The position numbers and the translations under genes were made by a program. Below are positions 5,104 through 20,419 of a stretch of 64,000 nucleotides of DNA, piece by piece (the first letter of the stretch is position 1; the number at the start of each line of letters is the position of its first letter). The notes beneath the pieces are model-generated. The model had not been told where the DNA came from, did not search any database, and saw only the letters and a list, made by a program, of their open reading frames with translations. This DNA comes from Natrinema versiforme (GTDB taxonomy: Archaea; Halobacteriota; Halobacteria; Halobacteriales; Natrialbaceae): NCBI RefSeq assembly GCF_005576615.1, contig NZ_CP040330.1, positions 1,674,001 through 1,738,000 of the forward strand, read 5' to 3'.

Positions 5104-5177
5104 GGGTTGGTGATCTAGTCCGGTTATGATACCTCCTTCACACGGAGGAAGTCGGCAGTTCGAATCTGCCCCAACCC
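5104..5177 (+). tRNA. tRNA-Val (anticodon CAC)
   Basis: The acceptor stem GGGTTGG (5104-5110) pairs with CCAACCC (5171-5177). The anticodon stem CCTCC/GGAGG flanks the loop TTCACAC, giving anticodon CAC (valine, GUG codons). The T-arm GGCAG-TTCGAAT-CTGCC occupies 5154-5170. No intron is visible and CCA is not encoded beyond the A at 5178. The 3' half is the attachment site of the element that ends at 8355. Confidence 0.95.
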
Positions 5178-5178
5178 A
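5153..5178. repeat. Attachment site copy 1 (3' end of tRNA-Val)
   Basis: 26-bp sequence covering the T-arm and 3' acceptor strand of tRNA-Val, repeated without mismatch at 8330-8355. Bases on either side differ. This is the usual att arrangement for tyrosine-integrase elements that insert in a tRNA 3' end and restore the gene. Confidence 0.9.
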
Positions 5179-16902: not shown

Positions 16903-18864
16903 TTAGATCTCCTCGACGTACGCGTACGAGTCGGACAGCGCTTCGGCGTCCTCGCGTAGCAGGGCGACGACGAGACAGTCGACGTACTCCTCGAAGTACT
17001 CGACGAGGTCGGCGATCCGGTTCGAGTCGATCGCCTCGAGCGAGTCCAGGAGCATGAACGGGACGACCTCGTAGACGTCGTGGACCAGATAGCCCGCGAG
17101 CGCGAAGACCAGTCCGGTGACCTCGCGTTCGCTCTCCGAGAGGTGGTCGACGGTGTCCTCGTAGGTCCGGCCGTCCTCGGTGGTCCGGACGATGTGCAGG
17201 TCGAACGCGGTCCGCGAGACTTTCCGGCGTCCCTCTCGGACCGTCTTCTCGCGTCGTTCGATCCAGATGCGGTCGATGTTCCGGTACTCGAGGATCGAGA
17301 GGATCGACTCCATGTGCTCGTTGAACGCGTCGACGGCGTTCGCCTCGATCCGGTCGACGCGGGTTCTGAGATCGGTCAGTTCGTCCTCGATGGTCTCGCG
17401 GCGGTCCTCGACCTCGCCGCGTTCCTCGATCTTCGCCTCGATCTCGTCGATCCGGTCTTGGACCTCGTCGCGTTCCTCCTCGAGATCCTCGAGTTCGAGT
17501 TCGAGCCGGTTCAGGTCGCGGTGGGCCTCGATAACGTCGCCGTACTCGGCGTCCTCGAACGTCTCGGCGTCAGATTCGAGGTCGTCGACGCGTTCCTGCT
17601 GGTCCTCGAGGTCGGCCTCGAGTTCCTCGATTCGCTGTTCGCGGCGCTCGAGTTCGTCCTCGATCGCCTCGAGTCGCGTCTCGATCTGGCCGCGTTTCTG
17701 CGTTTGCTGGCGGATTTCCTTCTGTCGGGACGAGAGGTCGTCGATCTGTTCCTGCAGGTCGCTTCGCTCGTCGAGTTTCTGCTGGCGGAGCGATCGCAAT
17801 CGGTCGAGCGTCGATTCGATCCGTTCGCGGTCGACCTGCGACCCGCACGTCCAACAGACGACATCGTTCGAGTCCCCGAGGAGTTGCTCGGTGATGTCAC
17901 CGTCACTCTCGGTGTCATCGCTCGTCTCGGTCGACTCCTCGAGATCGAACTCGAATCCGTCGTCCGCGAGGCGCTCCTCGTTGAATCGGATCACGCTCTG
18001 GAGTTCGCTGACGGTCGTATCGAGGGATCGCTTTCGGGAGCGAAGCTCCTGGACTCGCCCCTCGAGTCGCTCCGGCGACTCCTCGGTGTCGTCGACCTCC
18101 TCGAGGTCGGCCTCGAGGTCGTCGCGTTCCCGTTCGAGCTCCGCGTAACTCTCCCGTTCGGTTTCGAGATCGTACTCGATGGACTCGAGTTCGGTCCGTG
18201 CCTCCTGGAGGTCGGCGAAGGCCGATTCGATCTCCGCTTTCCGTTCGCGACTCGCCTCCACGTCCAAGTCGAACTCGTCGAGTTCCGCCTCGAGTTCATC
18301 GATCCGTTCGGTCGTGGTCTCGATCTCGTTTTCGAGTGCGACCCGGTCCTCCTCGAGGTCGGGCAGCTCGGCGTCGAGCCGCGACAGTTCCTCGAGGCGC
18401 TGGTCTATGTCGCGCTTTTCGGCCTCGAGACTGCTGATTTCGGCCTCGATCTCGTCCGTATCGATCGGCCGCATGATGAGTTCGCGGAGGTCGTCGCCGG
18501 CTCTGACGGCTCGGCGCGCCTCGTTCGACTCGAGCAGGAAGGCAAAGAGGTCCGCGAGTTCCGGGTCGTCGAGGTAGGGATCGCCGTCGAAGACGACCTC
18601 GCCGTTGCGCCGCTCGAGGTATCGCGTATACTGGTCGTCGTCGAAGGCCAACTCGACGCTGCCGGCGTCCGCGTCGCCCTTCAGCGAGGATCGCTGGCTG
18701 CCGAGCGCCGCCATGATCGTCTGGAGAAACGATGTTCGGTTCGTCGCGTTCCGGCCGGTCAGGACGTTGACGCCGGGTTGGAGCGTCACTTCGGTACTGT
18801 CGATGCCGCCGATGTTCTCCGCTGCGACGGTAATCGCCGATGAGACGGATTCTGGAGATGACAT
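16903..18864 (-). CDS. Archaea-specific SMC-related (Rad50/SMC-like) coiled-coil protein
   Basis: 653 residues with split-ATPase architecture. N-terminal head: VNVLTGRNATNRTSFLQ (residues 33-49) at the Walker A position. Long antiparallel coiled coil (about 135-315 and 355-530) flanks a Rad50-type zinc hook, CWTCG (Cys337, Cys340). C-terminal head: HLSESEREVTGLVFALAGY (ABC signature position) and PFMLLDSLEAIDS (Walker B/D-loop position). The Walker A is degenerate: G-R-N-A-T-N-R-T-S lacks the invariant Gly and Lys of GxxGxGK(S/T). This matches what I recall of a haloarchaeal SMC-related family. It lies 62 nt downstream of the RdfA-like gene in the same direction, suggesting a joint operon in chromosome organisation or cell-shape control (inference). 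Confidence 0.85.
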   Translation of the reverse strand: MSSPESVSSAITVAAENIGGIDSTEVTLQPGVNVLTGRNATNRTSFLQTIMAALGSQRSSLKGDADAGSVELAFDDDQYTRYLERRNGEVVFDGDPYLDDPELADLFAFLLESNEARRAVRAGDDLRELIMRPIDTDEIEAEISSLEAEKRDIDQRLEELSRLDAELPDLEEDRVALENEIETTTERIDELEAELDEFDLDVEASRERKAEIESAFADLQEARTELESIEYDLETERESYAELERERDDLEADLEEVDDTEESPERLEGRVQELRSRKRSLDTTVSELQSVIRFNEERLADDGFEFDLEESTETSDDTESDGDITEQLLGDSNDVVCWTCGSQVDRERIESTLDRLRSLRQQKLDERSDLQEQIDDLSSRQKEIRQQTQKRGQIETRLEAIEDELERREQRIEELEADLEDQQERVDDLESDAETFEDAEYGDVIEAHRDLNRLELELEDLEEERDEVQDRIDEIEAKIEERGEVEDRRETIEDELTDLRTRVDRIEANAVDAFNEHMESILSILEYRNIDRIWIERREKTVREGRRKVSRTAFDLHIVRTTEDGRTYEDTVDHLSESEREVTGLVFALAGYLVHDVYEVVPFMLLDSLEAIDSNRIADLVEYFEEYVDCLVVALLREDAEALSDSYAYVEEI

Positions 18865-18926
18865 ATGCGTCGTTTCTCGCCGCTGAATATAAATGCTATT
18901 TGGTTACGGCCGCTTTCCGCCGTTCG

Positions 18927-19553
18927 TCAGGCGGGTTCGGTCCCGTCGCAGTCACAGCCGCCCTGATCGAGCAGTTCTGCAATGGGGTAGTCGGCCCCGC
19001 ACTGTCCGCAGATGGCGCGAACGTCGACGAACACCTCGTAGTCCTTGTCCGTAATCTCGTCGGCGTTGCGTAACTCGTCGAGCGTGGATTCGGTGATGAC
19101 CTGGGTGCGGCCCGCGAGTCGCTGAACGGTCTCTTTCTTCCGTTCGATACGGTCCTCGCTGTCCTCCTCGGGGAGCGAGGCGTCGCGAACGTTCGTGAGA
19201 TACGTATAAATCGTCTGGTGGGTGACGAAGTCCGATCGAACGTCGTCGATGTCGACCCCCGATCGCTCGAGTTCGCGGCGTTTGCGAACCGCGTCGGATC
19301 GAGACACGTCGTCGTCGGTCAGTGTTCGGTAGAGGGAATCGATATCCGTATCGAGCACGGACGCGCCCGCCTCGCGCACGGCCGCGCGGAGCACGGCCTG
19401 ATTGAATTCGGTCGCGAGGTCGCGCAGACTCGTTCGCTCCGTCCCGTCACCGATCCACTCGGCCTCCAGGCGCTCTCCCCACTCCTCGAGCCCGTACTGG
19501 TCCATCACTCGCTCGACTTTCGTTCGTCGCCCGCCGCTCGAGTCGTCTGCCAT
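18927..19553 (-). CDS. rdfA: RdfA-like protein (rod-determining factor family)
   Basis: 208 residues from ATG 19553 (12 bases shorter than the longest frame). Features: GGRRTKVERVMDQYGLEEWG at the N-terminus, RTSLRDLATEFNQAVLRAA, a DSLYRTLTDDDVS block, RRELERSGVDIDDVRSDFVT, HQTIYTYLTNVRDASLP, and a C-terminal metal-binding tail with CGQCGADYP and CDCDG. This order is what I remember for RdfA, a protein required for rod morphology in Haloferax volcanii. It precedes the SMC-related gene. Paralogues with this build are numerous in haloarchaea, so a direct shape role for this copy is not certain. Confidence 0.78.
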   Translation of the reverse strand: MADDSSGGRRTKVERVMDQYGLEEWGERLEAEWIGDGTERTSLRDLATEFNQAVLRAAVREAGASVLDTDIDSLYRTLTDDDVSRSDAVRKRRELERSGVDIDDVRSDFVTHQTIYTYLTNVRDASLPEEDSEDRIERKKETVQRLAGRTQVITESTLDELRNADEITDKDYEVFVDVRAICGQCGADYPIAELLDQGGCDCDGTEPA

Positions 19554-20419
19554 ACCGGATGTCACTGAGGCCTATCGTACAAGTGTTGTGGTTGACTGCC
19601 GGGCCAACGACCAGCCGTACGAATCGGAAACGAACAGATTCATCCGAGCCGACCTCGATCCGCTCACCTTCCAATCATCGACTTACTTCGCTTCCGTTCG
19701 GATGCGAACCGTATCGACTCCCTCGTCAGCCCCAGCTCGTCCCGTACTGAGTAGTACGAACGTTCGGCACTGGCGAATTTCCCGACGTTTCGGCCGACCT
19801 ATCGGACGGTGCCGAACGTTCCAGTCACGTTTTCCTCGAGTTAGTTACGAGAACCGCTCCCGAAACGAGGCAGTGGGCGGACGGAAGCGGCATCACTGGA
19901 ACGCGAACCGATAACAGAATTATGATACGAACGAACAGTTACAAAGATATGCCTGTAAATAGCCGGCTCGCGTCGCCGAGTGGGGCCGTTCGCCGGTCGC
20001 ATCACGGAACGAGAGTCGCTTTCCACGGACGAACGTGAAAGCGGGGCGTAGTCGAACGTAACTGGACGATGGGACCGGTCCAAGCGGCGACGGTGTTATC
20101 GCACGGAATTCGCGTTCGTGTTCATCACTGGCGAACGATTTGACGAACGTGTTCGCGTGGGATCACCTTTCTGATCACACGCCGATTCGGGGACTACCGA
20201 GCAGTGGAGTCGGTATCGGCGGAGATTCACGACCGATTGGTCACCCGATGTGATCGCCGAATGATATCTATCGTTTTTCATTACGTAACAGAACCATCCG
20301 CGAGACGCTCGAGCCCCACGTCGTTTCGAACCGCTGTTCCGGTTCTCACCCTCCATTTGGGTCCGCTGGCGGCGGTACCGGGGAGAAGATTTAACAGAGG
20401 CTCCGCCGAAGAGCGAACG
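19554..20419. other. Gene-free intergenic region with a 20-bp inverted-repeat motif
   Basis: 866 bases without a supportable gene on either strand; the longest frames (20096-20356, 19841-20083, 20204 extension) have non-halophilic composition. It contains TTACA-N10-TGTAA at 19939-19958, almost identical to a motif in the other large gene-free gap (40738-40761). GAAGATTTAACAGAGG just before 20400 is a plausible TATA/leader for the zinc micro-protein at 20420. Confidence 0.6.
19939..19958. repeat. TTACA-N10-TGTAA motif, copy 1
   Basis: 20-bp block with five-base inverted arms and spacer AAGATATGCC. It matches 19 of 20 bases at 40740-40759 in another long gene-free gap. TATA-like core; could be an operator/promoter or part of a non-coding RNA promoter. 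Confidence 0.5.

Follow-up and report, generated by a model that had tools for sequence, protein, structure and literature searches.

In Haloferax volcanii, deletion of either rdfA (hvo_2174) or sph3 (hvo_2175) leaves cells that form only disks and are non-motile (Schiller et al., PMC10869688). The same study described the hvo_2174-2176 gene order and the HalOD1 domain of DdfA, and reported adjacency of the two families across 24 genomes for 42 of 54 RdfA and 42 of 50 SMC-like proteins; in Haloferax, both rdfA and sph3 fall upon addition of conditioned medium (PMC12240190). The four Haloferax sph genes were studied by deletion in 2024 (PMC11276520): each deletion reduces survival when gene conversion is assayed; a double deletion of sph2 and sph4 cannot be obtained; the sph2 and sph3 deletions have opposite shape phenotypes; and an sph1/3/4 triple mutant has no growth defect. 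A 2026 report states that Sph3 promotes plates (PMC13286277), whereas in both deletion studies cells without sph3 cannot form rods (PMC10869688, PMC11276520).

The Sph proteins and the coalescin ClsN belong to the archaea-specific SMC-related proteins (ASRPs), which were described as carrying the Walker A and B motifs and, in most cases, a zinc hook, with no consensus flanking genes (Yoshinaga et al., PMC9389158); the partner proteins of ClsN have been raised as an open question (PMC9764264). Models of how SMC-family proteins act rest on ATP cycling.

An rdfA-asrp gene pair in Natrinema versiforme

The window analysed here, a 64,000-nucleotide stretch of the Natrinema versiforme genome, carries a pair of these two families:

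16903..18864, minus strand: asrp/sph gene, 653-aa archaea-specific SMC-related protein of the Sph2-4-type clade
18887..18893, minus strand: TATA-like TTTATAT, about 29 nt upstream of the asrp ATG, recognised from sequence only
18927..19553, minus strand: rdfA gene, 208 aa from ATG, or 212 aa from an in-frame GTG at 19565
18948..19010, minus strand: RdfA C-terminal four-Cys motif, probable zinc ribbon (C186, C189, C204 and C206 in 212-aa numbering)

The open reading frame coordinates confirm the pair proposed in the first-pass annotation, an RdfA gene and an SMC/Rad50-like gene on the same strand, with asrp downstream across a gap of 62 nt. The RdfA assignment made there also holds: the protein scores 257 bits against Pfam PF21811 (gathering cut-off 27, model positions 1-195 covered) and directly adjoins an ASRP, as in the RdfA-Sph shape module; that the family is a shape determinant in H. 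volcanii is already published (PMC10869688). A profile search placed the neighbouring protein in NCBIfam NF045487 at 702 bits (cut-off 300, model positions 1-593 covered); the protein has a zinc hook between two coiled coils and an AAA_23 domain match. The TTTATAT box is a possible separate, leaderless promoter of asrp. The sole tRNA in the window, tRNA-Val (CAC), lies at 5104-5178.

A plasmid gene of Natrinema thermotolerans (CP031304.1, locus L123), 84% identical, is the nearest relative of the window ASRP. The rdfA beside that gene (L123:3200-3900) is unannotated and its reading continues in another frame, which makes it either a broken gene or a sequence error. The genome of the window itself contains a second rdfA-asrp pair (contig C3:212218-214759; loci L004, L080), clearly diverged from the first and bearing the same altered P-loop described below. 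Two short C-terminal ASRP-like fragments at C4:202700-202942 and C4:69740-69850 (L171, L172), one with an internal stop, are possible remnants of lost copies.

Predicted structures of the two proteins

Each protein was modelled alone with AlphaFold2. In the ASRP model (pLDDT 83.2), helices spanning residues 137-301 and 346-525 flank the hook, and Foldseek matched the model to Rad50 (7zr1, E=3.4e-15) as well as to Smc5/6, MukB and the Lamassu protein LmuB. The predicted structure thus has an SMC/Rad50 head fold, which supports the earlier description of the RdfA neighbour as an SMC/Rad50-like protein; as a sequence search of the PDB gave no match at E<=0.001, only the fold comparison links this ASRP to Rad50. 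The predicted head and coiled-coil architecture resembles that of Rad50, SMC and LmuB, and the zinc hook is as in Rad50; however, the window protein is shorter than Rad50 and SMC proteins, no Mre11 or kleisin partner was identified, and its catalytic residues are changed.

RdfA is confidently predicted (pLDDT 87.7) as a helical domain that contains a helix of 32 residues and ends in the four-Cys motif. The four C-terminal Cys are invariant in 30 haloarchaeal RdfAs, and a CxxC is also present in three of four methanogen RdfA-like proteins. The idea that RdfA adopts a known fold was not upheld, as Foldseek gave no PDB match at E<=0.001 and a profile search gave no match at E<=1; we therefore did not assign it to the kleisin, KITE or DNA-binding families.

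Altered nucleotide site of the window ASRP

The motifs of the ASRP head and hook lie at the following positions:

16957..16965, minus strand: switch region ALL (residues 634-636), with Ala in place of the Thr of methanogen and Sph1-type relatives
17026..17058, minus strand: Walker B/D-loop FMLLD-S-LEAID (residues 603-613), with an invariant Ser608 in place of the catalytic Glu
17122..17142, minus strand: signature motif LSESERE (residues 575-581)
17842..17856, minus strand: zinc hook CWTCG (residues 337-341), its CxxC nearly invariant in 155 aligned ASRPs
18730..18756, minus strand: degenerate Walker A, G37-R-N-A-T-N-R-T-S45, Lys to Arg and second Gly to Asn

The P-loop does read GRNATNRTS (G37-S45). 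The first-pass annotation had it lacking the Lys and two Gly: the Lys is indeed missing, but against the P-loop of relatives, A-P-N-A-S-G-K-T-S, only one Gly is lost, Ala at position 4 being normal for the ASRP family. The Walker B motif that it listed as present keeps its Asp, whereas the catalytic Glu is an invariant Ser (PFMLLDS); the signature region is there in a family-wide form, LSESE rather than LSGGE/Q (LS[TK]SE in the methanogen version); and the CWTCG hook (C337-WTC-G341) is intact as described. The window ASRP accordingly has neither the Gly-Lys-Ser/Thr of Walker A (GRNATNRTS instead) nor the Asp-Glu of Walker B (Asp-Ser instead) that mark catalytic SMC/Rad50-type ATPases, and it retains Asp607, the D-loop Asp and the SxSE signature. 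The earlier suggestion of a possibly non-hydrolysing protein is strengthened, making absence of hydrolysis probable, by the changed Walker B Glu and switch residue.

Two trivial causes of the P-loop change can be set aside. Adaptation of all SMC-like proteins to salt is ruled out by the canonical Rad50 of the same genome (GVNGSGKST, LILDEPT, LSGGER). Sequencing error, chance or a pseudogene is ruled out by recurrence of the motif: in a degenerate-codon search, the altered P-loop codon pattern matched 307 of 391 haloarchaeal genomes and 76 of 86 genera, and a reversed control gave no match among the matches listed for the 391 genomes.

Conservation of the altered site across haloarchaea

Our alignment of 155 ASRPs, 143 of them haloarchaeal, revealed a Walker B Glu in none of the haloarchaeal proteins. 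The Sph2-4-type clade, which includes the window ASRP, accounts for 120 of the 143 and has the P-loop G-x-N-A-T-[N/H]-R-[T/S]-S, Walker B D-S and a switch Ala; the second P-loop Gly is Asn except in two proteins with His, and the P-loop G, N, A, T, R and S, the Walker B D and S and the switch Ala are invariant in all sequences with letters at these positions. The P-loop change, for which the first-pass annotation had proposed a family alignment, is therefore near-invariant in these 120 proteins; the altered columns are among the least variable of the ASRP in this group, so the site is constrained, not decaying. The remaining haloarchaeal proteins are five with an Asn-Lys (NK) P-loop and a D-A Walker B, and 18 Sph1-type proteins with Gly-Lys and D-G, D-R, D-Q or D-S, which keep the switch Thr wherever the switch was read. 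The two Walker motifs change together: Arg occurs with Ser (120/120), Asn-Lys with Ala (5/5), and Gly-Lys with Gly, Arg, Gln or Ser (18 proteins). All five RdfA-paired methanogen ASRPs have GKT and D-E.

These results differ from the definition of ASRPs (PMC9389158), to which the window protein belongs by the curated model and by its coiled coil, zinc hook and N- and C-terminal head halves: Walker A and B are listed there as present, whereas in haloarchaea both are altered. Sph1 of Halobacterium salinarum (L120, on pNRC200) is altered only in part; RdfA lies directly upstream, the hook is CFVC and the Walker B Glu is missing (LLDG), but the P-loop keeps Gly-Lys (NFQGKSS) and the switch keeps Thr. 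Searches of the open-access literature turned up no account of changed ATPase motifs in Sph proteins, so that the state of the Sph nucleotide site has no precedent there; the pair, the families, their linkage and the shape phenotype are already published.

Linkage and co-variation of RdfA and ASRP

RdfA lies within 700 bp of the ASRP at 130 of 148 haloarchaeal and methanogen loci, a non-random sample that includes near relatives, in agreement with the conserved linkage that the first-pass annotation had presumed. By group, the counts are 103/120 for Sph2-4-type, 4/5 for NK-type, 18/18 for Sph1-type and 5/5 for methanogen loci; at 17 of the 120 Sph2-4-type loci, no RdfA occurs in the flank read. 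Four arrangements are represented among the 130 paired loci: 91 rdfA>asrp>, 16 asrp>rdfA>, 12 convergent and 11 divergent. The reported lack of consensus flanking genes (PMC9389158) contrasts with RdfA as the consensus neighbour in haloarchaea and some methanogens.

Across 194 haloarchaeal genomes, 164 contain an ASRP and 167 an RdfA. Among 150 genomes of the Methanosarcina class (a label inferred from family-level grouping with taxa of PMC9389158), ASRP occurs in five and RdfA in the same five, always adjacent; four of these five RdfAs, first seen by their adjacency to an ASRP, are part of the RdfA profile used, and the fifth (G546, L178), outside it, reaches 45 bits against Pfam's own RdfA model. 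Over the 130 pairs, RdfA distances are correlated with ASRP distances (r=0.88). When partners were shuffled within genomes (13 genomes, 28 pairs), the observed r of 0.793 exceeded all 5000 shuffles (mean 0.41, maximum 0.790). Each RdfA thus varies with the ASRP next to it more closely than species history would explain, an indication of a direct functional relationship and not just of co-transcription.

ASRPs occur on 119 records of a plasmid collection, and three of the four sph genes of H. volcanii have locus tags of plasmids (A0180, B0118, B0173; PMC11276520); the RdfA-ASRP module is therefore common on secondary replicons. No RdfA was found in viral contigs. At six loci of other archaea (L041, L044, L046, L047, L048, L050), a recurring operon consists of an AAA+ ATPase (PF00004 confirmed in L041, L044 and L047), a protein of about 135-260 aa and then an ASRP; in L041 and L047 a zinc-type protein follows the ASRP and a PAPS-reductase-like gene is nearby.

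Relation to Haloferax Sph3 and likely order of changes

The window pair comprises the same two neighbouring families as Haloferax rdfA-sph3 (HVO_2174-HVO_2175). It shares gene order and strand with loci L165, L166 and L169, which come not from H. volcanii itself but from three genomes of a genus taken as Haloferax because 7.3 kb of its sequence matches a Haloferax alexandrinus plasmid at 91% identity; there, rdfA and sph are followed by a HalOD1-domain, ddfA-like frame, unlike in the window. The proteins in the Sph3 position of these relatives have GRNATNRTSF, PFMLLDS and CWTCG, so that GRNATNRTS, LLDS and CWTCG are common to both.

A tree of 84 ASRP head sequences, built with the motif columns left out, placed the window ASRP (L003) in an Sph2-4 comb with no specific grouping with Haloferax Sph3, at a bootstrap that had not settled; the phenotype may consequently be that of another paralog. 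Given this placement and the opposite shape effects of the Haloferax Sph paralogs, "promotes rods", a role established in Haloferax only, should not simply be carried over to the window pair. The tie between chromosome organisation and cell shape that the first-pass annotation suggested has only indirect backing, from Haloferax, where sph deletions alter both shape and gene conversion (PMC11276520). In the same tree, again at an unsettled bootstrap, the haloarchaeal ASRPs cluster together (97/95), with the RdfA-paired methanogen ASRPs (99/93) as the neighbouring group; very long branches in the other-archaea rows leave the deep root uncertain. The Lys/Arg position changes three times on the tree, and presence of the Glu twice, once between haloarchaea and the rest and once within the outgroup rows. 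The likely, not strongly resolved order in haloarchaea is loss of the Glu first and of the Lys later. Pairing with RdfA is older than the loss of these residues: methanogen ASRPs with GKT and DE also adjoin RdfA.

Discussion

Our preferred explanation, to which we assign a probability of about 0.6, is that RdfA and Sph are the two parts of a dedicated complex in which the SMC/Rad50-fold head has stopped cycling ATP: RdfA would associate with the zinc-hook ASRP/Sph protein; the Sph head would have lost the Walker B catalytic Glu in the haloarchaeal ancestor; and in the Sph2-4-type clade three further positions would have changed as well (P-loop Lys to Arg and second Gly to Asn, switch Thr to Ala), with the consequence that the Sph2-4-type protein probably does not hydrolyse ATP. 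Sph would be a dimer, linked through the zinc hook, that serves as a scaffold or clamp without cycling; RdfA, a nucleotide that stays bound and unhydrolysed, or both would keep the heads in place, and the amount of Sph, not ATP turnover, would set activity, for example rod formation in Haloferax. In favour of this reading, besides the changes at the nucleotide site and their conservation, are the adjacency of the two genes, their occurrence in the same five methanogen genomes, the pair-specific co-variation and, in Haloferax, the identical disk-only, non-motile phenotype of either deletion (PMC10869688) and the joint fall of both after conditioned medium is added (PMC12240190).

That the altered P-loop is nearly invariant tips the balance slightly towards its still having a ligand or a structural role. 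In some P-loop enzymes, ATP binding survives a change of Lys to Arg; catalysis by uncommon residues is conceivable, and strong conservation of the altered site could reflect a changed rather than a lost activity. A nucleotide, ATP or other, might be bound without hydrolysis, acting as a lasting glue or as a sensor by which head engagement is locked, with the invariant Arg and Ser adapted to holding the ligand: near-invariance of G-x-N-A-T-N-R-T-S and D-S in 120 proteins suggests that something is held, and the Sph1-type GK[S] without Glu is the pattern of a binder unable to cleave; yet joint loss of a P-loop Gly and the Lys usually weakens phosphate binding, and we consider this account somewhat unlikely. 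An ordinary ATPase in which Arg43 holds the phosphates and another acid serves as base would fit the retained Asp607, D-loop Asp and SxSE signature and the predicted SMC head fold, but is quite improbable: Walker A (Lys and Gly), Walker B (Glu) and the switch have all changed together, and, as the canonical Rad50 of that genome shows, such changes are unnecessary at high salt.

The role of the pair can likewise be read in other ways. RdfA could be a zinc-containing regulator of its neighbour gene or of a shape regulon, with no RdfA-Sph complex, as befits a small helical protein with a C-terminal four-Cys motif beside an asrp gene with its own TATA-like box; this we think very unlikely, given that adjacency survives in four orientations, the convergent one included, that RdfA paralogs co-vary with their neighbouring ASRP beyond the genome's own history, and that the Foldseek search of the PDB (E<=0.001) gave no match to a DNA-binding family. 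That the pair is a DNA-maintenance or replicon-maintenance module with secondary shape changes is suggested by the lowered gene-conversion-assay survival of all four Haloferax sph deletions, by the failure to co-delete sph2 and sph4 (PMC11276520) and by the 119 plasmid records; we regard it as unlikely, since the sph2 and sph3 deletions are opposite in shape, the sph1/3/4 triple mutant grows normally (PMC11276520) and Haloferax sph3 sits on the main chromosome (PMC10869688).

Taken with the methanogen pairs, the dedicated RdfA-Sph complex has a possible origin that we judge to be evenly balanced between true and false: an entire archaeal class would have turned an SMC-superfamily ATPase to structural use, ATPase-dead and in partnership with RdfA, a dedicated non-SMC subunit inherited from an ancestral, ATP-hydrolysing RdfA-ASRP complex of a kind still present in some methanogens. 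RdfA emerges as a probable partner subunit of the ASRP family. The RdfA-paired proteins form a natural series that can be tested in Haloferax: methanogen GKT with DE, Sph1 GKS with no Glu, NK with Ala, and NR with Ser. The absence of the Walker B Glu in 143 of 143 haloarchaeal proteins, mostly together with that of the Lys, suggests that salt-loving archaea may have turned a chromosome-type motor into a non-cycling structural part. If this is true, a widespread and strongly conserved SMC-like family without catalytic residues that nevertheless controls shape and gene conversion would separate the structural role of such proteins from their motor role.
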